This document shows, one piece after another, positions 11,354 through 33,928 of a DNA stretch of 64,000 bases (the stretch's first letter is position 1; each line of letters starts with the position of its first letter). Both the position numbers and the translations under genes were made by a program. The notes beneath the pieces are model-generated. The model was not told the origin of the DNA. It did no database searches and saw only the letters and a program-made list of their open reading frames with translations. The stretch spans positions 248,001-312,000 of the forward strand of contig JAIGNY010003061.1 in assembly GCA_020152595.1 (NCBI GenBank), written 5' to 3'. The stretch comes from Chiridota heheva. Taxonomy: Eukaryota; Echinodermata; Holothuroidea; Apodida; Chiridotidae.

Positions 11354-11982
11354 TACAGGGAAAATTGGATGTTAGGTAGTGATATTAACTTTACTTTCAA
11401 TGAAGACCATCATAATGATATTGCTGCAACCCCAAATTCAATATAACCATATTGATAGGAGTTGTATGTCAATTCCTTCCCCCCAACCCCACCTTCAATT
11501 ATATATTTGGAAATAATCATTTTGGTTTTAATTGGCTAAACATAGTATAAATACATGGAAGACATATAATGTTGCAAAACAAAGTTTGGGGTTAAGGAAA
11601 TGTTAATGCATTGTAGATTATTTTAGATAATTTAGGACAATCCAGCAAAAATTCCTGGGCCTTCACATGGATTCAAAGAAAGCAGCTTGAAGCAGAATAT
11701 ATTTAAAAGTTGCATGCAATTATTTGGGAAAACAAATAATCAGTGATCATTGTGTGCTTGTCAAATAATCTGATCTGACATTCTGACCAATGCGCTCTGT
11801 TTTGCTTGGTTACTTTTTTTTTTTAGTCTGGAACTGTTTGGTTTGACGCAGGTGTTTGACTTGTTTGTTTTGTTCATTCACTAACAGTTTGTTGCTATGA
11901 AAATATATTTGTACTTTGTTTTGACTTAAAAGATGTACCACAAATGTGTTCAAAGTGAGTCATATTTTCCTCTCCATTTCAG

Positions 11983-12031
11983 GATTGTGCCTTGGAAAAG
12001 AGCCTTTTATCGACTCATATCAGGTCTATAG
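11983..12031 (+). pseudogene. decayed duplicate of an ERO1 exon
   Basis: After a CAG acceptor in the same context (CATATTTTCC, CATTTCAG), the sequence GATTGTGCCTTG...GAGC and TTTTATCGACTCATATCAGG repeats the ERO1 exon at 12,914. One base is lost after GCCTTG, which shifts the frame, and homology stops at TCAGGTCTATAG. The lost base removes the frame that reads [13 protein letters not shown]. It lies in the upstream copy of a tandem duplication, so it is a dead exon copy rather than a mutually exclusive exon. Confidence 0.8.
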
Positions 12032-12418
12032 AAATATGATGTTTCAAAACAAACTTGAGGGTTTAGGAAATCTTGATGCTTTCTACAATCTTGGACAAAA
12101 CTTGTTGAAACACTTTAGTGAAAATATGTGATGCTCTTCATGAACCTATTTTTCTATTGTAAAGTATTCCACATTTGAAAATTATAAATGCTGGAAATAT
12201 TTTCTATTGTTTCTTCAATCCTTATTCTTTCATTTGTAATTAATATTTTAGAATTATAAAGACGTTGTAATTTCATTGATGCTGCCAGTGTCCTCTTTTA
12301 CTCTCTCACTATATTAACCTACCTCTCCTCCCTCTCCCTGTTTGTTCAATGTTGGCCATTGTTAATGATTTTTCAGGAAATGATGTTAAGACAATTAAAT
12401 CCAACATTGAAAAAGAAA

Positions 12419-12913: not shown

Positions 12914-13006
12914 GATTGTGCCTTGAGAAAAGAGCATTTTATCGACTCATATCAGGTCTTCATAGCAGCATCAATATTCATCTAAGTGCCAAATATTTAA
13001 TATCAG
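12914..13006 (+). CDS. ERO1: ERO1 exon with FAD-contact SGLH motif
   Basis: A 93-nt exon after a CAG acceptor (12,911-12,913), ending before GT at 13,007. It enters two bases into a codon and leaves one base, and reads [20 protein letters not shown] (first 20 residues) followed by [10 protein letters not shown]. The Ser and His of SGLH correspond to the FAD-binding S252 and H255 of human ERO1A. A damaged copy of this exon lies about 930 bases upstream (11,983). Confidence 0.93.
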
Positions 13007-16000
13007 GTACGGAAAATTACATTCAGTTTTATAAAAGTTCTTTAACACCAGATGTATCAAAGCACTCTTAATGTTTCATTATATAAACACAAATGTATGT
13101 TTTTGTAGTTAGTACTATGTGAAATGTACTGCTAGGAATAAGTATATGGAATTAGTTTCGCTGATAGCTGAGTAAAAGTAATTTTCCTCTTGGTCAAATA
13201 GAATTAAAGACACAAGTATGAAGGAAAGTACAAATTGGTTTTCCGATAAGTCGGCTTTTTGTTTGTGTGATTGTGGTTTTAAGATCTGTCAATCTATCTG
13301 AGTTACCGTATGTAACGTAATAAGGGCAATAAACAATAAGCTAAGGAAAATAAAATTGCGTCACTATTTGGGTGCCCACGTTCCTGACAGCATACAGTGT
13401 GGTATTCAAACTGTATTGTATGAATTGGTTCTATACTAGACCTACAATAACCACTACAAAATCACTGTCAGCATCAGAAGCAAAATATGCAAATGATGTA
13501 ACAAAACTTATTTCAAGTCTTCCAGTTAATTATTATGTTATCAGTTGCAAAATGTTATGGTTCTTGCCTTAAGTTGAATATGGTACTTGCCCAAGTATAT
13601 GTCTTAGATGTATTATGGAAAGCATGAAAAATTACCAAATAAGTAATGCGTTTTAGATATTGATAATAGTTTGTCATATATTAACCCGATTTTTTGAAAC
13701 ACTAGGTTTTAAAACAAAACAAAAAGCAATTCCACTTATGTACTTTTTTTGTCCTATTTTTTGAAAATGTGTTTTTAGATAAAGTACAGTGATATGTTAA
13801 TCCCACTTTTTGAAGAAGAAGAAGAACAAAAATCATTTTTCACTGATTTTATATTTTTCTCAATTTCACAAGTTTCTATACACCTAATGATGTCCCATCC
13901 TTCTTTGACAGAACATATGATGCCTGGAACCAAGGAGACATGGGGACCAAATGACAGAGAATTTCAACAAGATTTGACCCAAAACCAGCGATGGTCAAGG
14001 CCCTATTAGATTGAAAAATTTATTTTTTACTTATTTAGTAGTTCTTCGTGCAATTGTGAAGGCTAAACCTTTATTAGAGAAAGAATCATTTTATACAGGT
14101 GAGCTCTTTGTGATGCTTTTGTAGGTGTATGAGGGGTGAAAACCTCCCCATAGTAGGTGGGGGTTGATGGAGGTTCCCCTTCAAACCAAATAGTATATGT
14201 TCAAGCAGACCAATAAATGGAATTGTGTCAGTAACACATCATTTTCAGACAATTTCCATTTCCCCCCTCCCTAATCAAAATTGGACTCTATGCCTATGAT
14301 TATTGTATTGTATATTTTCTTCTCTTGGATTCAAAATGTTAAAGGGTTAGGTCAAACATATCTATGTTGGGTCAATACAAGGAACCCATTGGTGGAGAAA
14401 TTCTTTAAATATCTTATTCTGTTAATGAGATATTAACTTTAAATGTTTATTTAGTTTGTTTCCAAAATGACCTAAGTCAGAAAGTTGTGACACCACACCC
14501 CTTAGAGTCCTAGTGGGTTTCAAGTGACATATCTTCTAGGTTTCTTTTGCTAAATGACAACTATAAGAATTGTCAGGAAAGTACTAAAACAGACTCCAGT
14601 AAAGTAACTGAACCAAAATTTTAGCACTCTGTAGAGTGCATACCTCAACCCACTTGATAATTTCAACATGCCTAAAAGTTCACCCCCATCTCCAATACGA
14701 TCTATCTCAGAAATCTTAGACCCACTAAGTTTTTATCCCAAATCCCTTTTCTCACTTTTAATCAGTATTTGGCATTTGCATGATAGACACTATAGGGTTA
14801 TCTACCTTGATTGTTTTCAGTTTCATTCAGGCTAAGCATTCATTGTTTGAGTTCTATTCAGGCAAGATTCACATTCCATCCTTTTCCATTCATGCCAAAA
14901 GCAATTGTTTTCATTTTGTTTAATACCCAACCACTAGATTTGATTTCTTTTAGAGTCCAGAGAATGGATTGTTTGGAAATCTTTTCATTTTTCAGCACAT
15001 TCTATTTAAAAGTTTGAACTAGAAGTCTTGACTGATCTCATCCAAAACATCCCCACCATTTGTCCCCTGTTCCAATATGTCTAAAAGATTATAAAATGTT
15101 GCTTAAAGGTCCTGAAAATTTGCTAAGAGGTCCAGATTTTGAGCCAATGAAGTTGTTTTGTTTTTTTTTTTTGGTCTTCAGTAAAATTTGACCCTGAACA
15201 GTTTAAAGACAATTTTGTAAAATAATTTATGTCATCAGCAATTTTTCCCTTTATACGACCTCCCCCCCCCCACCTCCCATCCAAAAGGCTGGCTACACCC
15301 CTGACCAGATAGACATTTCTGACCAAATATTGGAAAAACTTGTAATAAAAAGCTACATTGTATTTCTCTGCTGAAAGTACATGTGTGAAATTAATGAAAT
15401 ACAATGAATTCTGTGTACATGAATCTAAAACTTGCAATTGACCATTATTGTTATTTTGTTTGCAGCATTAATCTTATTTCCATTCTATGGTGACTGAAAA
15501 TGTGATTTTAAATGACATGTATGCAACATTAATGTTATTTTTGGTTAGCATGCAAAGCATAATGTGAACTTATGTAATGACCATTTGACAGTTTTGCCTA
15601 AGAATTCCTCAGAAATGTTAAAGTTTTTGAGAATTCTTCAGAAAATGTTAAAGTTTCTTTAGAGTTTCTCAGAAAAAGTTATAAGTTTTTTCAGATATCC
15701 TCATGGAAGGCTGGAATTTCCTTACTAAATGTTAAAAGTTTTTTAGAGACTCTTAAGACAGGTTGAAGACTTGTTTCCTTAAAAAAGTCTACAAAACATT
15801 TGATATTTCCTTGGAAGATAATTGTATTAAAGATGATATGATTTCCCTAAAATTTTCAAAGATTCTTAAGTGTTCTCATGATACTGGAGGTTTCAAAACC
15901 CTTAAACCTCTTCAAAATATTTGTGCACCAACGGCTGTATCAGGCATGATTATATTAAACCTTTTATTGTGTTTATTTGCATAAAGTTGCTACAGTGTAT

Positions 16001-19000
16001 TGAACTGAACACTTTTTTTACTTAGTATGCTCAGTCAGGGAGTGTGACAGGATGTAACTGCATATGGACATAGAAAGGGATGCCTTATGGGATATGGATG
16101 GGGGCCATTAAGGACATAGGATAAAATATATAACATGTGGTATGCACCAAGTGCTAAATCAGGCATGATTATTTTACTCGGCCTGTTTTTTCTTACTCAA
16201 CAAGTCATTTACATATAAGGTTATTATAACTGACAGACTTTCACACATAGTGTGCTCAATCAGGGACTGATAGCTAGGACGAGACTTCTTATGGAGCTTA
16301 TGGGATGTCAAGTGGAACATGGGGTGAAATGCCATGTGGTGCAGGGTGGGATGCCACGAGTAACACAGAGTGTGATATAGGTTAGGATGCCATGTGTGAC
16401 CTAGGGTAGAAGGCTATGTGGGACACAGGGTAGGAAGCCATAGGGACATGGGATGTGATGCCATGTGGGACATAAAGTAGGATTTCATTGGGACATTGGG
16501 AGAGATACCATGTGGAACATATGGTGGGATCCATTGTGGGACTTAAGGTGGGATGCCATGTGGGACATCAGGTGGGAAGCCACTGATGTGGGGCATAAGG
16601 TGGGATGCCATGGGGGACATGGGAATGTGGGAGGGATGCCATGTGGGATGGGACATGTGGGACATGGGATGCCATGTGGGGGGACACATGGGGAGGGATG
16701 GGATAATGTGGGTATATATGGTTGGATTAATGTGGGACATATGTGGGGATGGGATCCATGTGGGACATGGGGAACATGCCAGGGTGGGATGCCATGTGGA
16801 ACATGGGATGGGATGCCATGGGATGGAACATGGGTCATTGGGTGGGATGCCATGTGGAACATGGGTGCCAGGGTGGAATGCCATGTGGGACATATGGTAG
16901 GATGCCATGTGAGACATGTGGGTTGATGGGATGCCATGTGGGGGACATGGGACTGTATGGTGGAATGCCATGTGGGACATGGGATGCCATGGTGGAATGC
17001 CATGTGGGAGATATGGTGGAATGCCATGTGGGACAAGGGATGGGATTGGATGCCATGTGGGACATGGGGTGGGATGCCATGACATGGGTCATAGGATGGG
17101 ATGCCATGGGACATGGGTCATATGGTGGATGGGATGCCATGTGGGACATGGGATGGGATGGGTCATGTGGGACATGGGGTATGGGATGGCATGTGGGACA
17201 TGGGATGCCATAGTGGAATGCCATGTGGGACATGGGATGGGATGGGTCATGGGGACAAGGGATGGGATGTCATGTGGGGGATATGGGGTGGGATGCCATG
17301 GGACATGGGATGGGATGGGATGCCATGTGGGACATGGGATGCCATGTGGGACATGGGATGCCATGGGCCATGGGATGCCATGTGGGACATGGATGCCATG
17401 TGGGACATGGGATGCCATGTGTGGGATGCCATGACATGGATGCCATGTGGGACATGGGATGCCATGTGGGACATGGGATGCCATGTGGGACATGGGATGC
17501 CATGTGGGACTTAGTGTGAGATGCCATTTTTATAATTGGCCAGGTCATATAATATGGATGTCAATTTGCATGGGCATGTGAACCATGACCGTATTTACTG
17601 TTCTAGTTATTCTATGGTGACTGGAAATTTGATCGCAAATGACTTGTATGCAACATTAATGTTATTTTCATTCTATGGAGAGTGCAAATGCAAATGACTT
17701 GTATGCAACATTAATGTTATTTCCATTATATGGAGATAGCAAATGCATAATAGCTGCATGAAGCTTTTGTTTGCTTTCTATAAAAGCAAGAAAACACAAA
17801 TAAAGAAACCTCTCCTTATGTATCCAGATTTGTTCTTTTACTTTTAATAGATTTTTTACAGCCTATGGTTTGATGTCTCAGATAATATAGGTATTTGGAT
17901 AACTGAGACATTACAGAAGCAGAAGATGTTGGATTTGAAATATCAGTCTTCAGCAGTGGCATAGGAAGGGTCCCCTCTCAGAGGGCAAAAAAAAACAATT
18001 CCTGGTTACAAGCTGAAAAATTGCACTAGTAAATTAAGTTTCCATCAAACATTGCTGCTAATTGAAACATCTTCAATTTTCTGGAAATCTCATTTAATTT
18101 TAAGAAATTTCCATCATTTTTAGGAAATTTTCTCTAACATTTACAATATTTCTTTTATTTTGCAGAAATTATTACCAACATTTTTAATAATTTTACGAAA
18201 TTTGCAACTGGGAAGGTGAAATCTCCTCAGGAGCAGTTTTTTCCTCAGGGGCAGTCCTCCCCCTTCCCCACTTTCTATGCCCCTTGCCAGTCAGCATTTG
18301 ATCCTCCCATTTAACAATGACCGTTTTTTTCTGTCTCGAGTAATGATAATTTTTGTATACTACCTTCTTAATGTTATTACTGCAAATTGTGCCTCAACTT
18401 TGAATTTTGTCTTTTTTGTCTAAAGGTATCGCTGGAGAAGATAAGGAGGTGAAAACAGGAGTTTTAAATATCATCGATCTGGCCAAAAAGTTTCCAGACC
18501 ATTTTAACGAAAGCTTGATGTTTCAAGGCAACTCAAAGGAAGCGCTTCAACTCAAGGTACTTTCTTTGTATTAATGAGTTGTATTAATATTGGTGTTAGC
18601 AGTGGATAAGGAGAATGAATTGTATTAATATTGGTGTTAGTGGATAAGGAGAATGAATTGTATTAATATTGGTGTTAGCAGTGGATAAGGAGAATGAATT
18701 GTATTAATATTGGTGTTAGTGGATAAGGAGAATGAATTGTATTAATATTGGTGTTAGCAGTGAATAAGGAGAATGAATTGTATTAATATTGGTGTTAGTG
18801 GATAGGAGAATGAATTGTATTAATTTTGGTGTTAGCAGTGGATAGGGAGAGTGAATTGTATTAATATTGGTGTTAGCAGTGGATAAGGAGAGTGAATTGT
18901 ATTAATATTGGTGTTAGCAGTGGATAAGGAGAGTGAATTGTATTAATATTGGTGTTAGCGGTGGATAAGGAGAGTGAATAGTATTAATATTGGTGTTAGC

Positions 19001-22000
19001 AGTGGATAAGGAGAATGAATTGTATTAATATTGGTGTTAGCAGTGGATAAGGAGAATGAATTGTATTAATATTGGTGTTAGCGGTGGATAAGGAGAGTGA
19101 ATTGTATTAATATTGGTGTTAGCAGTGGATAAGGAGAATGAATTGTATTAATATTGGTGTTAGCAGTGGATAGGAGAATGAATTGTATTAATATTGGTGT
19201 TAGCAGTGGATAAGGAGAATGAATTGTATTAATATTGGTGTTAGCAGTGAATAAGGAGAATGAATTGTATTAATATTGGTGTTAGCAGTGGATAGGAGAG
19301 AATTGTATTAATATTGGTGTTAGCAGTGGATAAGGAGAGTGAATTGTATTAATATTGGTGTTAGCAGTGGATAGGGAGAGTGAATTGTATTAATATTGGT
19401 GTTAGCAGTGGATAAGGAGAGTGAATTGTATTAATATTGGTGTTAGCAGTGGATAAGGAGAGTGAATTGTATTAATATTGGTGTTAGCAGTAGATAAGGA
19501 GAATGAATTGTATTAATATTGGTGTTAGCAGTGGATAAGGAGAAAAAATTGTATTAATATTGGTGTTAGCAGTGGATAAGGAGAGGGAATTGTATTAATA
19601 TTGGTGTTAGCGGTGGATAAGGAGAGTGAATTGTATTAATATTGGTGTTAGCAGTGGATAAGGAGAGTGAATTGTATTAATATTGGTGTTAGCAGTGGAT
19701 AAGGAGAATGAATTGTATTAATATTGGTGTTAGCAGTGGATAAGGAGAATGAATTGTATTAATATTGATGTTAGCAGTGAATAAGGAGAATGAATTGTAT
19801 TAATATTGGTGTTAGCAGTGGATAAGGAAAATGAATTGTATTAGTATTGGTATCAGCAGTGGAGAGAATGAATTGTATTAATATTGGTGTTAGCAGTGGA
19901 TAAGGAGAATGAATTGTATTAATATTGGTGTTAGCAGTGGATAAGGAGAATGAATTGTATTAATATTGGTGTTAGCAGTGGAATAAGGAGAATGAATTGT
20001 ATTAATATTGGTGTTAGCAGTGGATAAGGAGAATGAATTGTATTAATATTGGTGTTAGCAGTGGATAAGGAGAATGAATTGTAAATTGGTATTAAGTAGA
20101 TTATATAAACAGCTTGTGGTGCTCTCCTATATCTGCCAGGGTTCTTTCACAGTGGCTATTCTCCCCTTATATTGAGGGTTATATACTTGAAGAATGATAT
20201 CACTTATTTGTACTTAGGGGATGTGTATATGGTGAATATGTGAGTGGAAGCAGAGTTAATGAGTGAAAATTGTATGACATGATTACTGAAAAGAAAATAA
20301 CTGTGTGAAATAAAAGTGAAAAAGTTTAACCATTGTAACTACTTCCTTGGGAGAAACCTTCTAAATTGCCCCAATGGATATCCAAAATATGATATCACAA
20401 ACATTGTAAATCAATCAATTTACCACATATTCTTCAACTGTTAAATTTCTTCTTACATTTTATCTGTACTTTATTTTTCCGGTATCAAGAACCATGATTA
20501 CAGTTGCAGAATATATACCCTACATTTAGGAAATTTGTATTTCTTAAATCATCTCTAATTTCAACTTAATTTAATTTTAGGTTAATGGCATAGTTTTTAT
20601 TTCTGTTTGTGTGAATAATTTGGAGAAGTACATTTTTTTTTAAGATCTATGACAGGTAGCAACAGCTTGAGTAATAATTAGAAGAAAATATGCTATAAAC
20701 TATGAAAATGCTTATGAACTATGATATATAAACCATGAAAATAGACTATAAACCATGAAAATAGGCTATAACCCAAGAAAATCATGTTATAAACCAAGAA
20801 AATATGCTATAAACATGAAAATATATAAAATGAGCTATAAACCATGAAAATATGCTATATAAATATGCTATCAACCATAAAAGTTACAAAATGTTTCATC
20901 AGAATCAGTCAGCATTGATCATTTGACAAAATTTTGAATTTAGAAAAAGATCTTATTATAATAATATTGTATGAAACTTTGTGACATTATAAAAAAAAAA
21001 CATATCAATTATTGTTAACATTTGTTTGCAATCCTTGACATTTGTTTGCAATCCTTCACCAACATAAGTTAAATGTGATTGGTGGAATATGACCAAGAGA
21101 TTTTTGAATCTTCATCAAACCTTGAATCAGAATTTTGCAGGAGAAAACTGAAATTTAGGACAAACATTTACATGAAGATTTTAAGCTGACTTTGCTTTCT
21201 ATAACTTTTGCAAACATTGAAAATTGTTCACATTTGTTTTCTTCAGAAGTTATTCTGTTGAGAATTTAAAGCTCTTTCTGGGGTAAGGTCTCAACCTGAC
21301 AAATGTTTTCTCCATAACTCTTTTCTGTACCTTGGCTCCTTTCTTCCAGGGATCCTATGCCACAACAACATTTGTTAATGAAATAGAGAGTGATATTACC
21401 CTGAAGGTAAAATCCTAATAGATCTCATCATCAACCAAGTTTATCCATTTTCAATTTTATTCATTTTAGATGTTTCTCATCTTGCAATATGTCTTAAATT
21501 TACCACTTTTTAAATTTATTTATTAATTTTTTTTTGTTGAAACATTGGAATCTGCCTCAGAAGATTTTAGGAATAGCTCCATGCTATCTGCATCAATTAC
21601 CTCTTGACCATGTATATTTAATGATCCTATTTTTTTATCATTGATTTTGACTTGATTATCTTTATTTTAATTAAGACATTTTGTTGTTTATTTACCTTCT
21701 TTCTAGTGCTGTCATGACATATCGATTATCGCGATATCACGATATCTCTTTTCCCACGACATGAAATATGCCTTCGTGACATATTCGTGATACCAAAAAC
21801 TAATACTCAACTAAGAAAGTTTCGCTCAACTAGGCTAGGCTACTTTATACGTTACAATTCTGACATTACTGTATTAAATCTAAAAGTCAAGTTTAGGCCA
21901 TTAAAAACATGCAAAGATATTGTGAAACAAAACTACTTAAAAATTGTGCAAAAATATCGTGAAACAAAAAAACCTACTTAAAAATTGTGCTTCTTCACCC

Positions 22001-25000
22001 TACACTGGCATGCACCGATGTAAGTTGGCAAAAAGAACAACAAATTGGCCCAGAACATGCCTCTCAAGCTCTCACTTCAATGATTCATGAATTACCAAAC
22101 ACGTGCATGATGATGTACGTAATAGTCACACGATCATGTTGTTTGCTAGATCTGCAAACAATTTTTTCTTGCATTCATTATTAAAAAGTAACGTTAGTGA
22201 TTTTAACAATTTGTGTGGTTAGTCAGTTTTCTTTAAAAGTATCACAATTTACCAATATATCGCGATATTTTTCTCCACGATAATTGATACCTTATAGAGC
22301 CATGTCATGACAGCACTACTTTTTTCACACAGAATTATAAGTATATTTGGAAAAGCAGTATAGTGACCATTTAATTCATGTACAAATTGTATGCGGAAGC
22401 AGGCATGTTCTGCTCCCCATGAAGATCATTTTCACCAAAACCATCTTAGCATGTTTTGATATTCGAAAATAATGTGCTCTGGTTTTGTGTTACTAGCAAG
22501 AAGTGTATTTTTGCAGTGTTATCACTGGTTCAAATAGTTTAGAATAGTAACACTGTTGTGGTACTCATGTTGTAAATAATTTGGAATTGGTTCCCTCTCT
22601 CTCATGTGAGGACCCCCCCCCAGAGAACAACACCCCCCCCCCCCCCCCTTCCCCTTTTTCTGACTTATTTAAGATAGATTCTGTTATCTGCACAAGTACT
22701 CACACTAAATGTGTGTGAAATGGGAATATCTGGAAATATTATTGTTTATATGAAGGGTAAAAAAGTCTTGAGTGTACTTGTTGCATTGTTCTAAAGAAAT
22801 TAGTGGAATTGTACAGTTTGTACAAATATTTGTTCATGTCACCCCCAAACAATAACCTTCTACAGTATATGCTTATCAGCAAATGATTGGAAACATTGAT
22901 GTTGTACATTAAGTGAAGGAATGCAAGTGGCTTTTTGACATGTTTCAATCTGTTTGGAGTAAAATTATGAAGCCCAATTATAAATGTTGTCAGTCAGTTC
23001 TAAAGCTGAAGGGTGTGTATTGACTGTATTGTCCTTTCTTGTGGGCATAATGGTAAAATCCTAGTATAGCGGTAAATTTCTATATAAGGATTTTTGCTTT
23101 TTCTTTTTGTAATTTTGGTTTTGTTTAGTTGTATTTATGTATTTTAACAATTTTGTTTTTAGATTTGGGTCTTTTAAGTAGAAACTAAGCTAAAATTGTT
23201 TAAAAAAAGAGGAATAATTCTTACGTTTTGGCTTTCCAATCGAAACTTTTACTCGTCAGTGTATATACTACTGTTGTACTGACGAGTGGAGTCTGCAAGC
23301 CGTTTTGCCGGTTAACTGAAATTTTAAAAAAACGTGCGTATAACTCATATCTCATAGGTTTTAGTATTAGGTTTTAGGATTAGGTTTAGGATTAGGTTTT
23401 AGGAATTAGGTTTTGGTATTAGGTTTTGGGATTAGGATTAGGTTTTAGGATTAGGATTAAGGATTAGGTTTTAGGATTAGGGTTTAGGATTAAGATTAGG
23501 TTTTAGTATTAGGTTTTAGGATTAGGTTTTAAGATTAGAGTTTAGGATTAGGGTTTAGGATTAGGGTTTAGGATTAGGATTTAGATTAGGGTTTAAGATT
23601 AGGTTTTAGGATTAGGTTTTAGAATTAGGTTTTAGGATTAGGATTTAAGATTAGGGTTTAGGATTAGGTTTTAGGATTTTGACATTGTTAAAATTTCTCT
23701 GCACTGTTATTCAGCTTTATTTCTTTGTTTTCTTCAAAATGGCTGACAAGAATGCAAAGTTTGTGAACTCGTGATTTATTATCCTTTTTTAACGAAATTT
23801 GCCAAAAAAATTCCCCCAAATTTTATCAGATTTAAATAAAAACCCGTTTTTTGCCTCAAAATTCCTAGATTGTTAACTAAAATTGATATTTTAAGATTTG
23901 TCAAATTTTCCTTTGTAAATTCTAAAAGTTTGAAGAAAATCAGTCACCTATAAGTATTAAAAATGTTGAAATTAATTCCTATATAGTGATTTACTGCTAT
24001 ACTAGGATTGTTCTGGCATAATGGGCAACAGTCTTTCAAAGCAGCACTGTTTATGCTCTAATCTAATTATAAAATAGTTGCAATACTTGCTCAACTAAAC
24101 TCAAAAATTGCTGAGAAAAATGCTTTTTGTTTTGGACACTTGAGTCCACTTCTTGACATGACTGGAGTTCAATTGATAGAATTTTGTGTTTTCTTTCAGT
24201 TATAGGGCTTTGTTATTCTTTGTACCGTATGATTTGGGTAACAACTTCTCTGTCTTTATTGACCTAAGGATTTGACTTGTTGTGATGCAATACAACTTAA
24301 ACCATAGTGCTAGCTTTAATGAAATGCAGATGCAAACATCAAAATTGAATAGAACTCACACCTTGAATGCTTAGTGCAGCTATATGAGCTGTTAAGGGTA
24401 TTTGCTTCAGGGATGCTTTTCTTATAACATGCTTTTTTTTTTTTTTTCATTTTCTTTTAAACTTCTTTATCGTTTATTATTTATTTACTACATCAAATGT
24501 GGAGTCAAATTTTCCTTCTCTAAATGGTTTGAACCAAAATTCTGTAATACAATACTCAAATAATTTAAGAAACTTAAATCTGTAATGTGAACACTAGTCT
24601 GATCTGTTATTTCTACACAAATCTATTATGCACTTGTCAATTGTGTGACTCACCCCTACACCCCAGACAAGTAAAGTGGGTTGACAAAACATGTACATTG
24701 ATGCACCCCTCAGTCACTTAAATGACTGAAATTTTTTGTGAAATGACTTACCCCAAATGAATCGCATCTGTACAAAGTCAATGGGTCTTAAGTAAATTGT
24801 CTCACCCCAGAGTCACTCTGGTGACAGACAATTTGGTATAATGATGCACATGTGAGTCACTATTTGATATGTCAGTGACTCACCTTTGACTGACATTGAC
24901 AGGGTAGTATGGGTGAGTCATACAACTGACAAGTGCATACAACAAACCTGAATGAAAGAAAAGATGTGACTTGCTCCTCATTTTTTGCCCTCTTATTGTC

Positions 25001-28000
25001 ATCTATCCCATAACAAGGATATGCCTGGCCACCAATTATGTCTTTTAAAGAATAAGTTCATTGGTTAAGCAAGTCATCTTTAATAAGATAAGACTTCAAA
25101 AAGATACAAAATGGTGAAGAAAGCATTTAAAAATCTTATTCTGTTCAGAAAGTATTCAAGTTCAAAGTTCTATAGAAACGAATGAAATCAAGACTATTTT
25201 TAACGTCACTTCTTCACATTTTTCAGTCTTTATGTTTTATTTCATATTTTTTCTTGAGATTTTGTTCCTGAAAAATATTGCTTGTCTGGAAAATAGTAAA
25301 ACAGAATTTAGTAAGAAAATATAATTTACACCTGATGAAATTTTGAAGTAAAAAAAAATTATTTGATAAAAATGGAAATTAGCTTTCTTCAAAATACAAC
25401 AACAATTGTTAAGAAAGTGAGGATGAGGGCGCCAACCTTTTAGATTAGACTTTCCACACCACTCAATTCTACACAAATGAGACAGAACTTGAAACTTGAA
25501 TATCTCTTTAATGGAAATATATTTTGTTTTGAAAGATTTCTTCACTAATTTGTTTATTCTTAAGTCTTCTTTCATAATCCTGTAAGTCTTCTAAATTATG
25601 CTGTTAGACTCACATCCTAATGGTCTTATCTTCCCTACCATGGGTGCCGAGTTCAGCTAGACATAGTTCCTGGCATTTTTGCTGTGAGAATGAGTAGCAT
25701 CATTCAAAACTTGCTCTGCAACAGGGAACTGTCAAGGGCGGCAAATTGCTCACACTTCTCCACTTCCCCCTAAAAAAACTATGGTATAAGCACAGACTTG
25801 ATCAACCAGTATAGATTTAACAAGTTTTTACACTTATCTGAATTTAAGATTTCATTTTGAACATGAGGATATGTTACATAAAGTTTCACTGGTTATTTGG
25901 GTCATGGTTCACTCTCACCACCATAAGTTTGCTTTTGGTTCATATCAAAAGAGTTCATTGATTTTCAGTCATATGTTAATGATTAAATTCCTTGCGTTGT
26001 AAAAATATCAGTTTGTACAAATATTTGTCCATTTCATACGCCAAAATAACCTGAATCTTCCATCAAAGTTCTGTTTTAAAAGAGAACAAAATGCAGTAAT
26101 TGGTTGGTAGAAAATGTCAAATTACTAAGGTCGTGACATTTTCAATAGGGTGACTTTATGAAGGATGTATTTTTTTCAAAACGTAACTTTAAAGGCTTTC
26201 TTTCATTCATCATGATTCTCACTTCTTTAAAATTAAGGAATCCCAGTTTGTAAGTTTCTATGTCCAGAATTTAAAATAATTATTTGTTGTTACATTGAAG
26301 ATCATCCTTATATTTTGGAAATGTCTACATATTAAAAATGATGGGAGTATATTTTTCCATCAGGATCATCAGGTCACGGCATGATTAGTGATTTTCACCT
26401 TGTGTTTGGCAACATATTTAGGTTATTCTGGTGAGTTGACAAGAAGAGAAATCAAATCTCGACAAATAAGAAGACTGAAATCGTCATATTTCCTGATATT
26501 TCATGAAAGCATCATGATAGTTATGAATGAATACTAGTTTTAAGAATTCTTTTGCATTTCTTGTTGGGGATGTTTCGCATTGGAATAAATACTGTGATAA
26601 CTCATTCTTATTTACATGTCAACTATATCTTGAAGTTAAAAGCAACTTCGTATGGGTGATAGTTAATATCTGCCTACTTTTGCAAAATTAAAAAGTATTA
26701 TCAAATCAATAAATTAAATCCATATGTTGATCATGTTTATTTTTCATTTAAAGAAGTCAAAATAAATCAATGAAAATAGGTTTACTATTGATGACAATAA
26801 CAGTGGCAGCAGGCACTAGCCAAAGGGCTGAATGTCGATTTTTTTGGGACGTTTTTAAAACTATTATTGTAACGGTTATGCTTCTGAGTTTTCCGCTTTA
26901 TATATGGTTCACTCAGGTGAAAGTTATTTTTCATAGAGGTTGGCTCCCCCTCCCCTCCCTTCCCTTCTTTAAAATTTCTAGCTACGTGCCTGAGGGTCGG
27001 ATCCAGGATTCAAGAAAGGGGGTTGACAGACAAGTGTCCCATTAAGGTGCAAAGCACAGTGCAGTGGTGATGTGGGAGTTTTGTCCCCATGGCAAAATAG
27101 GGAGTTTAAAATCGGGTGAGAAAGCATAAGGCTAATGGTTAAAGAGACATAAAGTCTCATATAATCATTATTTCATATGATAGAGATCAAAATCTAACCG
27201 ATTGCCAAACACAGCAAGTCAAAATCTTATTCCTATCTCAAGTTATTCATGTTTGAAGTCGACACATGGGGGCTGCCATTTTGTAAAATTCTGTATTTAA
27301 TTATTGTTCATAATGTCATAATTTTCCCAAAGGGACATAAGGATTATATTGTATTTCTTTATGAATGTGATTAAAGTTTTTATTCCAACATGATGTGACA
27401 CAAACTTTTAACAGCATGTTTTGATGATTACATGTGAACACAAAAATTTCCTTATTCCTTACAAAAGAAAAACAATTTTTCATAAGATGGAAAACTTGAG
27501 GTAGATTATAAAGAAATACAAAGCATTCCAACATCCTGCTGGGCTGATGACATCATAATCTGCATGTTTTGAAATCAAAATGGCAGCTCCCATGGTACTA
27601 TTAAGTAGTAGTATTAAAAGTTTTAATGATTGCAAAAAATGTGTTAGATTTCTTCGGGAGGTATGAAACTTGGTCAGTACACTTGTTATTTTCAATGAAA
27701 TAATATGAAATAAGAATTATGTCAGAAGAAAGGATAAGGATTATGTCGTCTCCTATACAAAAGGTTGATAGGTTTGCATTATGTGTTAGACCATATAATA
27801 GGCCTAGGAATATTTATTTTGTTTTTGCTGGGGAAGGGCTGCTAGCCACCCTATTCACCCCCTCCCCCCCCCCCTCTCCCCATCCACCACTGAATACAAA
27901 TGTGTAAGTTATAGTTTTATCCAAATAACAGATATGCAGTTATGAGCAAAATTTGATTACCAGGATGTATATTCACATTTGTCATTTCTTCATCACTATG

Positions 28001-31000
28001 ATACCCATTCATGGAATCATGCAGCTTTTTGGAACTCACTTGCTTAACTTTAATGAATGTTAATGTGATACCCCTATTGTAAGTGTTGGATATTTTGTAC
28101 TCTGTTTCTTGTCATAGCCTTGAAAGGCTGAATAACATTTGATTAAATTTGATGAAATGTCTTTTCATTGATGGAGAAAAAAAAATCATTTATCATTTGA
28201 GAGGTTTGTGCAGTATTTACCAGGGTTGTAGGAAGCCTTCCATAAGTGGGAGGGCACGACCTCTTAAGGGGCACTTCCAAAGTGATATGCATATGTCTGT
28301 AGATAGTAAAGTAAAAGGGGCGCTTTATGTTTAGAAACGGGCATTTTTCTATCGGTAACACATCCCCCCATGCATGGGACTGACTATTGGGTCTGTAATT
28401 AATGGGCATTTCATTTTGAAAGGGGTACCTGTGGTATTTACCATATATGGTATTGACCATTTTTTATTAAATAGGTTAAGATTTTAGAGACCTAGTGTGA
28501 AGAATTACCAGTTCTTTTGCTGCATATGGTAGATATATTGATATATTGACCTTGTGAAAAGAAATAAACAATATTTTTATTTTCCTTTTTTTTGCAGGAA
28601 GAATTCAGAATGCACTTTTGGAATATCTCAAGGATAATGGACTGTGTAGGATGTGACAAATGTAAATTATGGGGGAAACTGCAGGTAAATTCCAGACTTG
28701 AAGCAAAAATAATGGATATTCTTAAATATGTATTTGTTTTTCTTCATGTGTCTGTCTGTTAAGTTGTGCCTATATCTGTGCAACTTTTAATGAAATTTAA
28801 TTTGTTTGTATGGTGTTGGTTAGTATATATGAAGACATGTGTTTAGGTCATTGTAGGTGAATGGAATGTTGCTACTGTGCATCTCCATTAAAAAGAAATT
28901 TACATCTTAAGATTAAGTCTTCTTCTGGTATCAATCTTAGTGAAGCAAGGGAGAGAATATTGAGGGCAAACATGAGCAAGTTTTATTGTTTAAGTTAGAA
29001 GAGATTCTTCCCAGCATTCCATCTTACTTTGTGACCCTCAAAGTTCCAAAAATTTAAATTTTATTTTTCATTTCATCATGAAATGTCATGCATTAGGGAC
29101 TAGGTTCAGTCAATGCTCCATGCCCCCCTTCTCCCCCCTCTTCTCCCCCTCTTCTCCCCCTTCTCCCCCCGCTCCCCCTCTTCTCCCCCCTTCTCTCCCC
29201 TTTCTCCCCCTCCACTCCCAATTGTATGACTTCCTATTAACTAACCAATCAAATCCCAGCAAAGTCTTTTGTGATAGCCCAAATATTTTTTAATTGGGCT
29301 AAAATTTGTCTTATTCCAAATAAGGAATAATTAATTAGCATGTGACCATTTGAGATTTAATGCACTCTAATGAATGAGTCTATTGTCAATGAATAAACAA
29401 TGCATCTATTAGTAGTGTTAGTGAATAAGCTAGTAAACAAGATGGAAGGCACTGGACTAAACTTTCCATTTCACTGCAACAATATTTTTGTCCATTTTGT
29501 TTTTTTAAAGTTTTAAAATTTTTTTTATCCCTTTTAGACTGACTTCCTCTTCTATTGTATGTATCAAAGACACATTCCATCAAACACCTGTTTGTTTGAA
29601 TATTTAAGTTTATTGTTGTTCAAATTTTTAAAGAAAAGCAGCATTCCACAAAACACCTGCTTGCCAGCCAGCATTCCAACTTTGTTATTCTAATCTGGTT
29701 GATATAGTCTCATTAGCATATCAATAATGTTACTTCCTGGTGCATTTTCTCAATGATAAAGCATTCTTTAAAAGGAACATGGGGCCATTTCTGCTTTGCC
29801 TGAATTTTATTTGTTTGGAAACAAAAGCAGATTTCTAAAATAGCACAACATCTGTTTTTGGATATGCCTGCTTAAAGAAAAAGATAAGAAAACAAACTTT
29901 TTTTTCCACTTTTACTGACAAAAATAATTGCACTTCAATGACTTTGCCTAGTTTGAAGTTTTGTTTATATTTTATGTAGCTGATTTATTCAGTGTCAAAT
30001 TATTTAATGTATGCTGAATATTATGGAGTCAATGTTATTTATTCATAGTGGATAAGTACTTCATAAAAACATCCCTTTGCTGGAAAATTGTTTTAAAAGT
30101 CTTAAATCAAACATGGAATTTTGTTTAGGGATCAATATCATGGCACTGATTTTCATTACATTGGATTTCTAAGGTAATCAACATTATTTTTGCGAAATTA
30201 ATGTCTTTTTTTTTTGGGGTAAGGGGGTATTGCCTGGATTTACCACCCACAATGGTATAACCAACCCCCTCACAATTCTTCATGAACTTGCTTTGTTGCT
30301 TGGAAAGGGGTATAGGTATAATATATATGTGTCATTTTTTATCTGATTTTGATTTTGATTTCCCAGATCAATGTTGCAAAATATGTCTTGAAGAAATATG
30401 TGAATAAAGGAGAAAAAGCATGAAAATAAAACCAACTGAATTATTACATTTATTTTTGCAGATACATGGACTGGGAACTGCATTAAAAATCTTATTTACA
30501 CCTGGAAATAGGCTCAGACTGAACAGGCAAGAAATAGTAGCACTTTTCAATGGATTTGGAAGGTAAAATGTTCTACAACTTCAGTATGCTTATAATTACA
30601 GTTTTTCTGCATGAAAAGGAAAGTCATGAGCTGAACTCAGCAGATATGTATGGACAAATGATCTTAGAGGAACATTCCCATTGAGTTTCATTTAATGTGT
30701 CTAGTAGAGAAAAATTTAAGAAACAGATTGCTTAAAAAATCATGTTGATTTCTCATTCCTAAAGAAGTTATTGAACTTAAATGATTTTTCTAACCTGCAT
30801 AAAAATATCTTTTGTACAGAGTCTAAGTCATCATTATGATGTCATCACAGCACTTCCTGTACTAATCTTTATGTATTTCTATGAAAATTAATTGCCATTT
30901 TTCCATAATTCGAATATAAGTTACAAGAACAGATTGCAAAATATTATTGTAAATTTCATTCCTCACAATTTTTAATCATTTTTGAGAAAAAAATAGTCCC

Positions 31001-33928
31001 AATCATTAAGAAAATATGAAATTAATTTTTAAAGAAATACATAAAGAATATAGTACAGGAAGTGCTGTGATGGCAATGATGGCTCAGACCAACAATCTCT
31101 TTTATGCAGACGGGATCAATCTTTTAAAATTCAATAACTTCTGCTAGGAAAAAGACATCAACTTGTATTTTTCACTTATCTGTTTCTTTCGTTATGAAAT
31201 TCAATGGGAATATTCCTTTAACACTTGAACACCCAGCTCACGACTTAGATACTCATTTTAGGTAAGCATTTAAGCCAGTACAATGACCATTTCAGTGTTG
31301 ATTTGATTTCAGGTTGTCTTGTTCCGTTGACTCATTAAAAAAAAAATCTAAAAACCCATCTCTTGTGTGATGCCTATGCAAATATGTAGTTAATTTAAAA
31401 TCACTGTTTCATTCATTTTATTGTTCATGTATACTTATCTGTAATTTTATTGTTATATGTACGGCGCCTTGAGCATCCATTAGGATGGATATGTGCGCGT
31501 TATAAATCTTATTTATTATTATTATTATTATATGGAAATTAAGGTGTGATGACATATGGATCAAAGGGTGGGATGACTTGAAGGACATAGGGTGGGATGT
31601 CATATTGAAGGAGGGTGGGATTGCATATGATATGTCACATGGGTCATAAGTGGGATGGCATGTCGGGCAGAAGGATTGGGTGGCATATGGCTTGGTGGTG
31701 GTGTAACATTCGGGCGGGCTAGGATGGGTATCTGGGAGGGGGTGGTATGTGGTGCTGGATGGAGGGGAGGTGGCATATGGGATGGAGGGTGGGATGCTAT
31801 AGGTTGCTTCTATTGTGCTTGTCAATCAGTTTATCTTTAGCTTCTGCATGCAGGCCATGAATGTTTTAAAGTTTATAGTTTGAAAGGTGTATGGATGTAA
31901 GGAAATTTAGTCAAATTGCTACATAATCTATTAAAAACCATGTACCAAGTCACAACAAATCTCATAAAAATCGGTTATACATTGAAAGTTAAGTTTTAGC
32001 AAGAGAAGAATTAAGTTGAGGAAAAGTTGAACAGCTGAAGGGGAATCCGGTCAGGATTTGAAAAGCTTTCTTTTTCCGCTCTGAAGATAGAACATATAAT
32101 AAGACCTCTTAGCATTGGAAACAGCTTTCAAACTATGAATCTTTCAAAGTTATTGAAACACTTACAGCCTTTTGTATTTTCTAAACTCTGAAAACTGAAA
32201 GTCCTATTTTCAAAATTCAAAACCCTTCTTCAGATTTTCAAACTCTTTTGATCAATGTATAAATTGCGTGCCTGACCTGTTACATGTTTAACTTTTAGAG
32301 AGATCATTTTTTTGTTTTCTTTTAATTTTTGGTGAGCTGTTTTGAGTTGTTTTATTAGGCTAAGACTTTAAATGACGCATTGATGTGCATTTGCTTTTAA
32401 AGCCTGCAGATTAATTCAAGTTGGCTTAGTGAATATGTAAGCGTACCCTCTTTGTTGGAAAAGAAAATGTTGCAAAAAACGTCCTTTCCAATTAAAGCAC
32501 TATCAGTTTATTTCGAATTGCCGACCGATCGAACCCCTTGCTGCAAAGGTGATGTCATAAAGATGCTATTTTTAATATGAGTACATTTATTTATTTCAGC
32601 CATTTAAAAATTATATGCATTACTGAGTAATTGCATTACACTGATAATAAAAGTAAAGGGAAATACCTTGTTTTTGATGCGAGTGTCGTCCATGTTGAAC
32701 TTAGTAAATGATTATCACTGTTGATGTAACAAGCAGTGACATTAGGTTGTAGGTCCGCCCGTGCTCCTCTCACTGCAAATTCTATCAACCAATCAGCGTG
32801 GTGCACTGAACAACACTCAAGAGTCAATGTTGTTTCAAAATGAAATCACTTTCAAATTGAATCCACCCCTGTTTTTTTTTTTTTTATATACTCTGAATGT
32901 CATTAAGATCATTACCTTACTTGGTGTTTAAACAGATGTTATCTTTTTGGGTCTACGGCAACACCCGACAATATTATTAATCTCTCCACGCGCTATCCTT
33001 TTGACGAGTACCCTAGCAGACATTAGCAGTATGTGCGTAAGTTTGTTTGAAGTTGGTAACTTTGCCTTTGTTTTTCTAGTAAAATTTGATCGACTGTGAC
33101 GCAATCTTTGTTGCTGACAGAATGATAACACATGTACCAATAAATTTCGTGCTTCTGACAAAGTTTGGGGACCCACCTGAGTCGCGACCCATAAATTGCG
33201 GATTGCCATCTTGGACTAATCAATCAAAAAGAGTCACAATGCACAGTATCATTTATATTGTTGAATCCCTTACTCATTTTTTCTTCTTGATAGATTATAA
33301 ACATCACTTTTCCTCATGACTTCAAAACCTGTGAAAAAATGAACACAATCAAACCTTGATGTGAATTTTGGAGTGTTCTGAATTTTATGGGTCGCTGTTT
33401 TGTAGTGTTTGTTTTCAATTATCCATCAATATTTTTCATTAAGGTACATCTGGTTATGAATGTCACACACTTTATCAACAATATTTGAATGAAACAAGTG
33501 AATTTTCACAATTTTAAAATAAAAAGGTTGGCACAAATAGATAGATTAAAACATTTCCTTAAAACTAGCAAGACCTTTTATAAAGTTACAAAGCAGGTTT
33601 ATAATGTTAGAAATGACTAATTCTTCATTTGCATGAGCCAAAAATACAGACGTTACAATTTTCAAAATTTGATTTATTAAATGCTCTGTGAACAACAGAC
33701 ATATCTGTCTGTATAAATGGATTTTATGAATGTTTTATGCCATTTCATTTTGTTTTGGTTTTCTATTTTGCTCTCAACAGATTATCAAGCAGTGTGAAGG
33801 AACTCGAAGATTTTCAGATGAGGCTTGGCAAGAACTCTAATAAAAATAAAAAGGCCAGGTCAGCGGGAGGTTTTTTTAACACTTACTGTGTGACATCATT
33901 GACGTCAAGGTTTTTAGTCTGGTCTTAA
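12914..33928 (+). CDS. ERO1: ERO1 (endoplasmic reticulum oxidoreductin 1), C-terminal part, multi-exon
   Basis: ERO1 is the FAD-dependent thiol oxidase of the ER lumen that re-oxidises protein disulfide isomerase using O2. Six exons on this strand reproduce the second half of the family in order: the FAD-contact helix with SGLH (12,914-13,006), the WGPN...FQQ and LKNL...LRAI segment (13,912-14,098), the LAKKFPDHF segment (18,426-18,556), the catalytic CVGCDKC motif (28,598-28,684), the [11 protein letters not shown] segment (30,462-30,562) and the terminal VKELEDF segment (33,781-33,928). Every junction has GT/AG sites and matching codon phase. The N-terminal exons, with the shuttle cysteine pair and the first FAD-binding region, were not found and probably lie upstream. 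The introns hold about 20 kb of repeats. Exon 13,912-14,098 carries two apparent single-base losses. All other exons are open, so I read this as a functional gene with probable assembly errors. I cannot tell which vertebrate paralogue (A or B) it corresponds to. Confidence 0.93.
13912..14098 (+). CDS. ERO1: ERO1 exon with two apparent single-base deletions
   Basis: The acceptor is TTTGACAG (to 13,911) and the donor is GT at 14,099. The exon opens in phase with the previous one and reads [12 protein letters not shown]. It then shifts frame near 13,969 (an AA run where AAA is expected) and again near 13,979 (CCC where CCCC is expected). After the second shift it reads [17 protein letters not shown] and then [19 protein letters not shown], both diagnostic for ERO1. 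The observed length of 187 nt becomes a phase-correct 189 if the two bases are restored. The first missing base falls in the codon for the Arg equivalent to human R287, an FAD contact. Two homopolymer losses within about 11 bases look like sequencing or assembly error; a true lesion or polymorphism is the alternative. Confidence 0.85.
14099..15480. other. ERO1 intron, no feature beyond C/T-rich runs
   Basis: AT-rich intron sequence with a C-run at 15,260. The frames at 14,811 and 15,123 look random. Confidence 0.6.
15600..15765 (+). repeat. degenerate ~33-bp repeat
   Basis: Units such as GAATTCTTCAGAAAATGTTAAAGTTT repeated about five times with drift. Confidence 0.6.
16285..17530 (+). repeat. 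1.2-kb minisatellite GGGATGCCATGTGGGACAT
   Basis: Sixty or so copies of a 19-20-bp unit with variants (GGTGGAATGCC, GGTCATGGG). The unit lacks stops in several frames, so long open frames rich in Met-Gly-Trp-Asp (+) and His-Pro-Met-Ser (-) overlap on both strands. They have no protein homology and are artefacts. The array lies in an ERO1 intron. Confidence 0.95.
17957..18290 (+). repeat. TTCAATTTTGWGAAA repeat family, locus 2, with inverted ends
   Basis: The composite is bounded by GTGGCATAGGAAGGG and CCCCACTTTCTATGCCCC, which pair imperfectly, suggesting a non-autonomous DNA element. The body contains TCAATTTTCTGGAAA, TTTTAGGAAATTTTC and GCAACTGGGAAGGTGAAATC. It ends about 135 bases before an ERO1 exon. 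Confidence 0.55.
18426..18556 (+). CDS. ERO1: ERO1 exon (LAKKFPDHF segment)
   Basis: A 131-nt exon after TCTAAAG, with donor GT at 18,557. The previous exon leaves one G, so the junction codon is GGT, giving [11 protein letters not shown]. It continues [18 protein letters not shown] and ends SKEALQLK. This matches the helical stretch just before the catalytic segment in ERO1 (human LLEILHEIKSFPLHF...AHKLK). It ends in phase 0. A 1.5-kb minisatellite begins about 20 bases into the following intron. Confidence 0.92.
18577..20083 (+). repeat. 1.5-kb, 41-bp minisatellite just inside an ERO1 donor site
   Basis: About 37 units of GAATTGTATTAATATTGGTG + TTAGCAGTGGATAAGGAGAAT. In the first ~230 bases, 41-bp units alternate with 38-bp units lacking CAG (TTAGTGGAT), a higher-order dimer. 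The rest is mostly the 41-bp form. It begins about 20 bases after the donor at 18,557. Confidence 0.95.
20640..20990 (+). mobile_element. partial copy of TTAA family A with internal short repeats
   Basis: TTTAAGATCTATGACAGGTAGCAACAGCTTGAG resembles the left end at 6,441. CAGAATCAGTCAGCATTGATCATTTGACA, then a TTTGTGACATTA block, follow as in the other copies. Between them (20,690-20,880) is a roughly 20-bp array TATAAACCATGAAAATATGC. Confidence 0.5.
21350..21406 (+). CDS. ERO1: candidate in-frame cassette exon of ERO1 (57 nt)
   Basis: Between two constitutive phase-0 ERO1 exons, a pyrimidine tract ending TTTCTTCCAG (to 21,349) is followed by an open 57-nt block and a GTAAAA donor at 21,407. 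Its 19 codons begin [11 protein letters not shown] and end SDITLK. Both ends are phase 0, so inclusion would insert 19 residues between ALQLK and EEFRMHF without shifting the frame. A CTGAC branch-point-like sequence lies near 21,296. The human and fly ERO1 sequences I know have no insert at this junction, so it would be lineage-specific and alternative. No homology supports the peptide; the case rests on splice signals, phase and openness, and chance remains possible. Confidence 0.4.
21704..22318. mobile_element. hAT-like MITE, 615 bp
   Basis: TAGTGCTGTCATGACAT at the left end and ATGTCATGACAGCACTA at the right are perfect inverted repeats of 17 bp. A second inner pair is built on ATATCGCGATAT. 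Flanks CTTCTTTC (21,696-21,703) and CTTTTTTC (22,319-22,326) agree at 7 of 8 positions, as an aged 8-bp target duplication. No transposase; two short open frames inside look accidental. It lies 300 bases downstream of the candidate ERO1 cassette exon. Confidence 0.8.
22604..22655 (+). repeat. poly-C tracts
   Basis: Two C-runs of 9 and about 15 bases separated by AGAGAACAACA, in an ERO1 intron. Such runs are hard to sequence exactly. Confidence 0.85.
23054..24014. mobile_element. 961-bp DNA element with 10-bp target duplication and telomere-like core
   Basis: Inverted ends share AATCCTAGTATAGCRGTAAAT followed by CTATATA. Both flanks carry GGCATAATGG (23,044-23,053 and 24,015-24,024). A 9-11 bp duplication points to a Mutator-like source. 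Inside is an array of TTAGGATTAGG-like units (23,345-23,680) and a hairpin ACTCGTCAGT...ACTGACGAGT (23,251-23,288). No coding capacity. Confidence 0.75.
23345..23680 (+). repeat. telomere-like TTAGGAT/TTTTAGG array
   Basis: About 335 bases of irregular TTAGG-containing 6-7-mers (TTTTAGGATTAGG, GGTTTAGGATTAGG), lying inside the element at 23,054-24,014. Similar to, but not, canonical TTAGGG. Confidence 0.85.
24629..24937. mobile_element. TA-flanked MITE, 309 bp
   Basis: The left TGCACTTGTCAATTGTGTGA (continuing CTCACCC) and right GGGTGAGTCATACAACTGAC (continuing AAGTGCA) are inverted repeats of 27 bp with two mismatches, each bordered by TA. TA duplication fits the Tc1/mariner group. The interior repeats short GTGACTCAC / GAGTCACT motifs. 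Non-coding. Confidence 0.8.
24938..27138. other. ERO1 intron, nothing recognised
   Basis: AT-rich, no array. A GGATCCAGGATTCAAGAAAGGGGG phrase near 26,998 looks like part of a dispersed repeat. The frame at 26,770 has a hydrophobic start but no other support. Confidence 0.55.
27139..27710. mobile_element. possible foldback element
   Basis: CATGGGGGCTGCCATTTTG (27,266) pairs with CAAAATGGCAGCTCCCATGG (27,577). Weaker inverted similarity extends outward (TCATTATTTCATAT / ATGAAATAATATGAA). Ends not defined. Confidence 0.4.
27711..28597. other. ERO1 intron, nothing firm
   Basis: Contains a C-run (27,862-27,873) and, at 28,110-28,150, a CTTGAAAGGCTGAATAACAT + TTGATTAAATTTGATGAAAT stretch that might be a LINE tail. 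Confidence 0.45.
28598..28684 (+). CDS. ERO1: ERO1 catalytic exon (CVGCDKC)
   Basis: An 87-nt exon, phase 0 at both ends, after TTTTTGCAG with donor GTAAAT at 28,685. It reads [19 protein letters not shown], then [17 protein letters not shown] corresponds to human CVGCFKC, which contains the active-site pair C394/C397 adjacent to FAD. All three cysteines are present. This is the strongest identification in the window. Confidence 0.96.
28685..30461. other. ERO1 intron, pyrimidine tract only
   Basis: A CTTCTCCCCC tract lies at 29,115-29,217. The rest is AT-rich with no recognised element. Confidence 0.6.
30462..30562 (+). CDS. ERO1: ERO1 exon ([11 protein letters not shown] segment)
   Basis: A 101-nt exon after TTTTTGCAG with donor GTAAAA at 30,563. 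It reads [12 protein letters not shown], then a short loop TPGNRLRLN, then [12 protein letters not shown], and leaves two bases (AG). The loop is shorter than in human ERO1A, where about ten more residues separate the same blocks. Confidence 0.94.
30668..31217. mobile_element. foldback element, family B
   Basis: AGGAACATTCCCATTGAGTTTCAT (left) and ATGAAATTCAATGGGAATATTCCT (right) bound arms of about 230-270 bases. The inner arms share CATCACAGCACTTCCTGTACT and ATGTATTTCT. Borders are TTAG and TTAA. The AGGAAYWTTCC ends are like those of the element at 10,811. It lies in the ERO1 intron just after exon 30,462-30,562. Confidence 0.75.
31300..31533 (+). mobile_element. 3' end of a second LINE-like element with (ATT)n tail
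   Basis: AAATCTAAAAACCCATCTCTTGTG resembles the KTHLL end of CR1/L2/Jockey-type proteins. GGCGCCTTGAGCATCC...GGATATGTGCGCGTTATAAATCTTATTT then ends in ATT repeats. This GCGCCTTGAGC / GCGCTATATAAAT-type tail is a common LINE 3' end in marine invertebrates. Short remnant only. Confidence 0.5.
31545..31800 (+). repeat. diverged minisatellite of the GGGATG..CATATGG family
   Basis: GGGTGGGATGNCATATGG-type units directly after the (ATT)n tail of the LINE at 31,300-31,533. Confidence 0.7.
31801..33780. other. ERO1 intron with a CpG-richer pocket at 32,440-33,250
   Basis: The pocket contains CCAATCAG (32,789) and two - strand ATG-to-donor stretches: MDDTRIKNK before GTATTT near 32,693-32,667, and [11 protein letters not shown] before GTGGGT near 33,209-33,176. 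They resemble first exons of a lost promoter or mobile element; no partner exon found. Confidence 0.4.
33781..33928 (+). CDS. ERO1: ERO1 last recognised exon and stop
   Basis: The acceptor is CTCAACAG (to 33,780). The first A completes the Arg codon from the previous exon, then [20 protein letters not shown] matches the family C-terminus. The frame continues through a lysine-rich stretch to TAA at 33,926-33,928. The roughly 20 residues after NKNKKAR have no family counterpart. A CCAG/GTCAGC sequence near 33,857 could be a donor to a further exon, so the last ~20 codons are uncertain. Confidence 0.85.

Follow-up and report, generated by a model that had tools for sequence, protein, structure and literature searches.

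The ERO1 gene on the contig

The window, i.e., the whole stretch of 64,000 nucleotides analyzed here, comprises bases 248001-312000 of contig C2946, such that a contig coordinate equals the window coordinate plus 248000 and negative coordinates lie upstream of the window. It holds the 3′ part of a gene for ERO1, the enzyme that introduces disulfide bonds; the part of the gene found starts ~28.7 kb upstream of the window and ends at window position 33,928. When joined, the four 3′ exons score 140.8 bits against the Pfam ERO1 profile (cut-off 27), and the CxxCxxC catalytic segment is present as CVGCDKC in exon 28598-28684. A search of the whole 1.1-Gb genome with the same profile returned four exon-sized matches, all on contig C2946, which implies one ERO1 gene at this sensitivity. 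Nine of the ten internal exons were identified by tblastn similarity to human ERO1A, which served both as query and as the basis of residue numbering; one of the nine (-11877 to -11793) matches only at E 0.005. The tenth internal exon (-9847 to -9794, DEVPCGLK…) came from a splice-site scan, and its acceptor scores 3.49; it resembles the human stretch DEVPDGIK. The exons are:

-14989 to -14870, + strand: internal ERO1 exon (tblastn with human ERO1A)
-11877 to -11793 (C2946 236123-236207), + strand: internal ERO1 exon, 85 nt (tblastn, E 0.005)
-9847 to -9794, + strand: internal ERO1 exon (splice-site scan)
-3349 to -3178, + strand: internal ERO1 exon (tblastn with human ERO1A)
-1872 to -1752, + strand: internal ERO1 exon (tblastn with human ERO1A)
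12914 to 13006, + strand: ERO1 exon for which a 30-residue peptide is quoted (tblastn, E 3e-12; Pfam ERO1; splice sites)
13912 to 14098, + strand: ERO1 exon, 187 nt, with two frame breaks inside (tblastn; splice sites)
18426 to 18556, + strand: ERO1 exon directly 5′ of the candidate block described below, ending …NSKEALQLK in phase 0 (tblastn; splice sites)
28598 to 28684, + strand: ERO1 catalytic exon, beginning EEFRMHF… in phase 0 (tblastn; Pfam; splice sites)
30462 to 30562, + strand: ERO1 exon with donor AAG/gtaaaa (tblastn; Pfam; splice sites)
33781 to 33928, + strand: last ERO1 coding exon found, ending LVWS and a stop (tblastn; splice sites)

The ERO1 reading frame is not intact in the assembly: one +1 and two -1 frame breaks lie in two exons, beside short base runs. 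Judged by their phases, the exon of 85 nt has one base in excess and that of 187 nt lacks two. An exon for human residues ~211-237 would be expected between C2946 246248 and 260914, but neither a motif search nor a splice-site rule recovered it. For the frame breaks, assembly error seems likelier than decay of the sole ERO1 gene. Stops occurred in 4 of 149 matches of a WD40 search, but the shortness of these matches makes them hardly informative on frame breaks. Two further features accompany the exons of the window: at 11930-12045, ~950 bp 5′ of exon 12914-13006, lies a partial copy of that exon and its upstream intron flank, whose frame is broken such that an 11-residue stretch is in another frame than the start of the copy, and at 18573-20083 a 41-bp minisatellite (37 copies, 94% match) begins 17 bases past the weak donor of exon 18426-18556.

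A 57-nt exon-like block before the catalytic exon

The exon ending …EALQLK at 18556 and the catalytic exon beginning EEFRMHF… at 28598 are separated by an intron of 10,041 nt (18557-28597), and both of these junctions are of phase 0. In this intron an earlier note, made from the sequence, had pointed to a 57-nt block with a pyrimidine tract, an AG acceptor and a GTAAAA donor, free of stops and in phase 0 on both sides, and its coordinates, frame and sites were all confirmed. In phase 0 the block encodes 19 residues, and its longest run of a single base is 3. The features at the block are:

21296 to 21349, + strand: candidate 3′ splice-site region, with CTGAC at 21296-21300, a pyrimidine tract and CAG (from the sequence)
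21350 to 21406, + strand: candidate block
21416 to 21418, + strand: in-frame TAA, 9 nt past the end of the block, reached after VKS if the candidate donor is unused (from the sequence)

The CTGAC is branch-point-like, judged by the consensus. Splice sites were scored with generic animal matrices, using the base composition of this region. The candidate acceptor (ccttggctcctttcttccag/GGATCC), which ends in a strong CAG, scores 10.94 and thereby exceeds a set of ten ERO1 acceptors (1.37-10.05) as well as the eleventh given above. The donor (AAG/gtaaaa, gt onward at 21407-21412) lacks a G at +5 and scores 2.21, within the range of the ten ERO1 donors (0.96-8.41); it has the same nine bases as the donor of the exon ending at 30562, and is stronger than AAG/gtactt of exon 18426-18556, the weakest ERO1 donor scored (0.96). 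The summed score of the block, 13.15, ranks fourth among the 11 internal ERO1 blocks, itself included. The 60 nt free of AG before the acceptor lie within the range of ERO1 acceptors (21-84), so that this feature fits but does not discriminate.

The block is richer in GC (36.8%) than the whole intron (32.2%) and than the 100 nt that follow it (27%), with 39% in the 100 nt that precede it. Codon usage was evaluated by log-odds trained on 407 codons from ERO1 and PLC-beta, with the block scored in one frame: among 8056 stop-free intron windows of 57 nt, 4.4% match or exceed its value of +1.33. This test has little power, since windows of the catalytic exon are negative (-1.8, -3.6) while those of the preceding exon reach +10.9 and +8.3, and all four stem from the training set.

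Rarity of the block

To place the block against its surroundings, both strands were scanned for blocks of 24-300 nt whose length is a multiple of 3, which are stop-free in phase 0, and whose acceptor and donor score at least 3.0 and at least 0.9, respectively. In 114 kb, the best block on the + strand is the ERO1 catalytic exon (14.72), followed by the candidate (13.15); outside ERO1 exons, 7.78 is the next score on the + strand, and the top block of the - strand reaches 11.9. In 314 kb (5000 N included), five blocks score at least 13.14, all of them on the + strand: two PLC-beta exons (17.61 and 15.03), the ERO1 catalytic exon, the candidate, and one 30-nt block without assigned identity (C2946 353061-353090, summed score 13.21). 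The assignment of two exons to PLC-beta follows from Pfam PH_14, matched at E 8.9e-11 and 0.001 (the latter short of the curated cut-off), and from a joint match to PLC-beta-3 with E 1.6e-13. Simulated Markov sequence (4 Mb per model) yields 3 blocks at order 2 and 4 blocks at order 4 that reach the candidate's summed score, and none in either combines an acceptor of at least 10.9 with a donor of at least 2.2. These nulls amount to 0.75-1.0 blocks per Mb, or an expectation of ~0.01 for the host intron. However, the threshold was the candidate's own score and the whole window was there to choose from, so that the effective chance is estimated to be nearer 0.1.

The strength of an acceptor alone is not specific: two of the 11 acceptors that score at least 10 on either strand of the 314 kb are those of known-protein exons, and four sit in what reads like retrotransposon open reading frames. 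The combination with an in-phase, stop-free donor is specific, as three of the 11 have such a donor of at least 2.2, namely the two known exons and the candidate. Over all AGs the partner-donor rate is 1039/32653; by acceptor score it is 47/1136 (2-4), 7/524 (4-6), 3/133 (6-8), and 2/35 (8-10), one of the last two being a PLC-beta exon. The candidate block is clearly more exon-like than expected by chance.

Origin of the block and its flanks

Positions 21248-21302, where the presumed branch point lies, align to units of a tandem array with an 84-bp period at 778620-786882 of contig C1207, and stretches overlapping these positions have a single match each on C2205 and on C2351 (79-91% identity). 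This 55-nt piece just 5′ of the block is repeat-derived and represents one diverged array unit. About 300 nt 3′ of the block, a perfect 17-bp inverted repeat (21704-21720 and 22302-22318, ends TAGTGCTGTCATGACAT) delimits what is probably a small inverted-repeat transposon of ~615 bp (21704-22318). For the 57 nt themselves, a second copy in the genome was not seen among the matches scored (best candidates only). Neither Rfam at gathering thresholds nor a tRNA scan gave matches in the window.

Derivation of the block from the preceding ERO1 exon was considered and rejected: the local DNA score is 14.0 against a shuffle mean of 13.9, 53% of 500 shuffles scoring as high, and at the protein level p is 0.08-0.26. 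Use of the block as an exon mutually exclusive with 18426-18556 is ruled out by the phases. A second exon-like block lies at 21247-21282 (acceptor 5.5, donor 5.9) and is followed by a well-formed 67-nt intron that leads to the candidate acceptor. A two-exon insert of 21247-21282 and 21350-21406 was discarded, as the first part has an in-frame TGA in phase 0, and joint inclusion would therefore act as a poison exon.

Predicted position of the insert in the protein

Human ERO1A aligns across the 18556/28598 junction without a gap (…KLK/EDF…), and the insert would fall between the equivalents of Lys375 and Glu376. Yeast Ero1p shows no insert in the alignment either and lacks two residues a few positions upstream, so that the two proteins are of unequal length in the stretch leading up to the junction. 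The point of insertion would be where the conserved LK-[ED][ED]-F segment begins, with the first Cys of CVGCDKC 15 residues further on. The earlier note had spoken of a linker, but the junction falls inside a conserved segment and not strictly in a linker. Insertion of the 19 residues lowers the Pfam ERO1 score of the joined exons from 140.8 to 130.4 bits (-10.4).

The statement that the peptide has no known homologue agrees with a search of the PDB, in which a 34-aa query gave no match up to E 10. With a longer query, four glucokinase rows (E 0.025-0.091) overlap the peptide, with no stretch passing alone, and are taken as chance. In the literature, an ERO1 isoform with such an insert was not found among the matches listed. 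A search of viral contigs with the ERO1 peptide gave seven pattern matches and no confirmed relative.

Aligned to yeast Ero1p by phmmer, the inserted form places the tail of the insert on VFANDLSLTLK and leaves out the native tail, which suggests how the insert could be accommodated; in the alignment to human ERO1A, the native tail is retained as a stretch of its own, and the insert supplies only the final LK. The resemblance of the insert tail to the Ero1 segment before (E/D)EF was compared with AAG-ending peptides (p 0.017 for yeast, 0.12 for human, 0.08 for the preceding exon), with peptides whose LK ends were held fixed (0.057, 0.23 and 0.21, respectively), and with shuffled peptides (0.14, 0.43 and 0.26). 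A yeast-like ending of the peptide (F.N…TLK before EEF) was hence not retained, as it is not significant once LK endings are fixed or by shuffling.

Cassette exon, pseudo-exon, or other outcomes

That the 57-nt block in ERO1 is a real exon is a well-supported prediction and, on balance, probable. The earlier note had put it forward as a possible cassette exon, an interpretation that is partly supported: the strength of the splice sites, the frame, and the rarity in 314 kb speak, short of proof, for an exon as such. The weighing combines the chance figures with a guessed prior of ~0.1-0.2 for a gene of this size to contain an in-frame exon that human and yeast do not have. As to the kind of exon, the best explanation, albeit a tentative one, is a lineage-restricted cassette exon of ERO1, a reading in which splicing, partial inclusion and placement in the protein are extrapolated from the observed sequence, sites, frame and rarity. 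Inside the 10-kb intron, the spliceosome would recognize a strong 3′ site (21350) and a moderate 5′ site (21406), and some of the transcripts would carry the 57 nt, spliced in frame between exon 18426-18556 and exon 28598-28684. The gene would then give two forms of ERO1, one of them 19 residues longer than the other. In the longer one, the end of the insert (…SDITLK) would replace …EALQLK before the EEFRMHF segment, and the remainder might bulge where the length of ERO1 already varies; without the 57 nt, the product corresponds to the human and yeast proteins. With its 57 nt in phase 0 on both sides, a strong acceptor, a moderate donor and long flanking introns, the putative exon is similar to symmetric 0-0 cassette exons of animals, as it also would be in adding residues near a length-variable site.

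A chance pseudo-exon has to be taken seriously as well, although it is the less expected outcome: a pyrimidine-rich stretch by a repeat remnant, an AG, an open frame of 57 nt and a GT might have come together in a form that the spliceosome ignores or silences. There is no scarcity of strong acceptors that go unused, only 2 of the 11 scoring at least 10 in 314 kb being those of known-protein exons, and the 30-nt block without assigned identity reaches the same summed score; the repeat-derived upstream flank, the peptide without a homologue found in the PDB up to E 10, and the search across the whole window, which raises the expected number of chance finds above 0.01, perhaps to 0.1 (an estimate), point in the same direction. 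Against a pseudo-exon speak the ~0.01 blocks expected per 10-kb intron and the two 4-Mb simulations with 0 blocks having both sites this strong, as do the mildly coding-like codons of the candidate. If the exon is real, it may still be constitutive, so that the 19 residues would be encoded in all ERO1 mRNA of the species and would have been lost from other lineages or never have existed there. Inclusion keeps both neighboring exons in frame, and the strongest scored acceptor of the gene follows its weakest scored donor, which might make the exon hard to skip; however, human and yeast ERO1 lack it, and an obligatory insert would be unusual at a conserved segment, making constitutive use unlikely. 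An alternative terminal exon, in which the acceptor is used and the donor is not, translation stops after VKS, and intronic polyadenylation leaves an ERO1 without the catalytic CxxC, draws on the donor being the weaker site and on the nearby TAA, but the next 2.1 kb contain no AATAAA, and the three ATTAAA (21873, 21900, 22180) all lie within the probable inverted-repeat transposon, which leaves this outcome highly improbable.

Implications for ERO1 function

The exons flanking the block are recognizable as ERO1 (PF04137; human ERO1A, 3AHQ; yeast Ero1p, 3M31) by the segment LK-[ED][ED]-F…IMDCV-C..C, and in contrast to the candidate form, human ERO1A (3AHQ) and yeast Ero1p (3M31) are both without the 19-residue insert. 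The active site in exon 28598-28684 reads C-D-K-C as in Ero1-beta, whereas Ero1-alpha has C-F-K-C, and the C-D-K-C form put into Ero1-alpha was linked to higher oxidase activity, according to PMC3971451. The same source describes the inner active site of Ero1 as adjoining FAD in a four-helix bundle, and places a PDI-binding β-hairpin near Cys262 of Ero1-beta, i.e., elsewhere in the protein, so that an effect of the insert on PDI docking, as had been suggested, is unsupported here (PMC3971451). Effects of the insert on docking or oxidase activity are speculation. Splicing variation in an ERO1 gene has a parallel in an exon-skipping splicing QTL of human ERO1B; there, however, an exon is skipped and the frame truncated, and an in-frame insert before the catalytic segment is not described in the portion of the source at hand (PMC9479353).

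If the exon is real, regulated splicing would alter the enzyme at a point 15 residues away from where the cysteines of its active-site segment begin, in a genome with one ERO1 gene by Pfam. Disulfide switches are regarded as what controls the activity of ERO1 (PMC3971451), and the exon would offer a direct test of whether this activity can be set at the RNA level. Going further, the animal might control ER oxidation through splicing where vertebrates use two genes, with one gene yielding two ERO1 proteins by switching a 19-residue insert at the base of the segment that bears the cysteine pair close to FAD; such a function is quite unlikely. A pseudo-exon, on the other hand, would be an ordinary intronic decoy.

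Other features of the window

Outside ERO1, an open frame of 509 residues on the - strand (47226-48752) matches the Mutator-like transposase PF20700 (E 9.7e-71), and an open frame on the + strand (44332-45336) matches reverse transcriptase PF00078 (E 4.3e-15) and is probably a LINE. Open stretches on the - strand at 57415-61524 look like exons of a coiled-coil protein that resembles BBOF1; of two stretches tested, one gave no match, and the other matches DUF4515 (E 3.6e-5, just under the cut-off).
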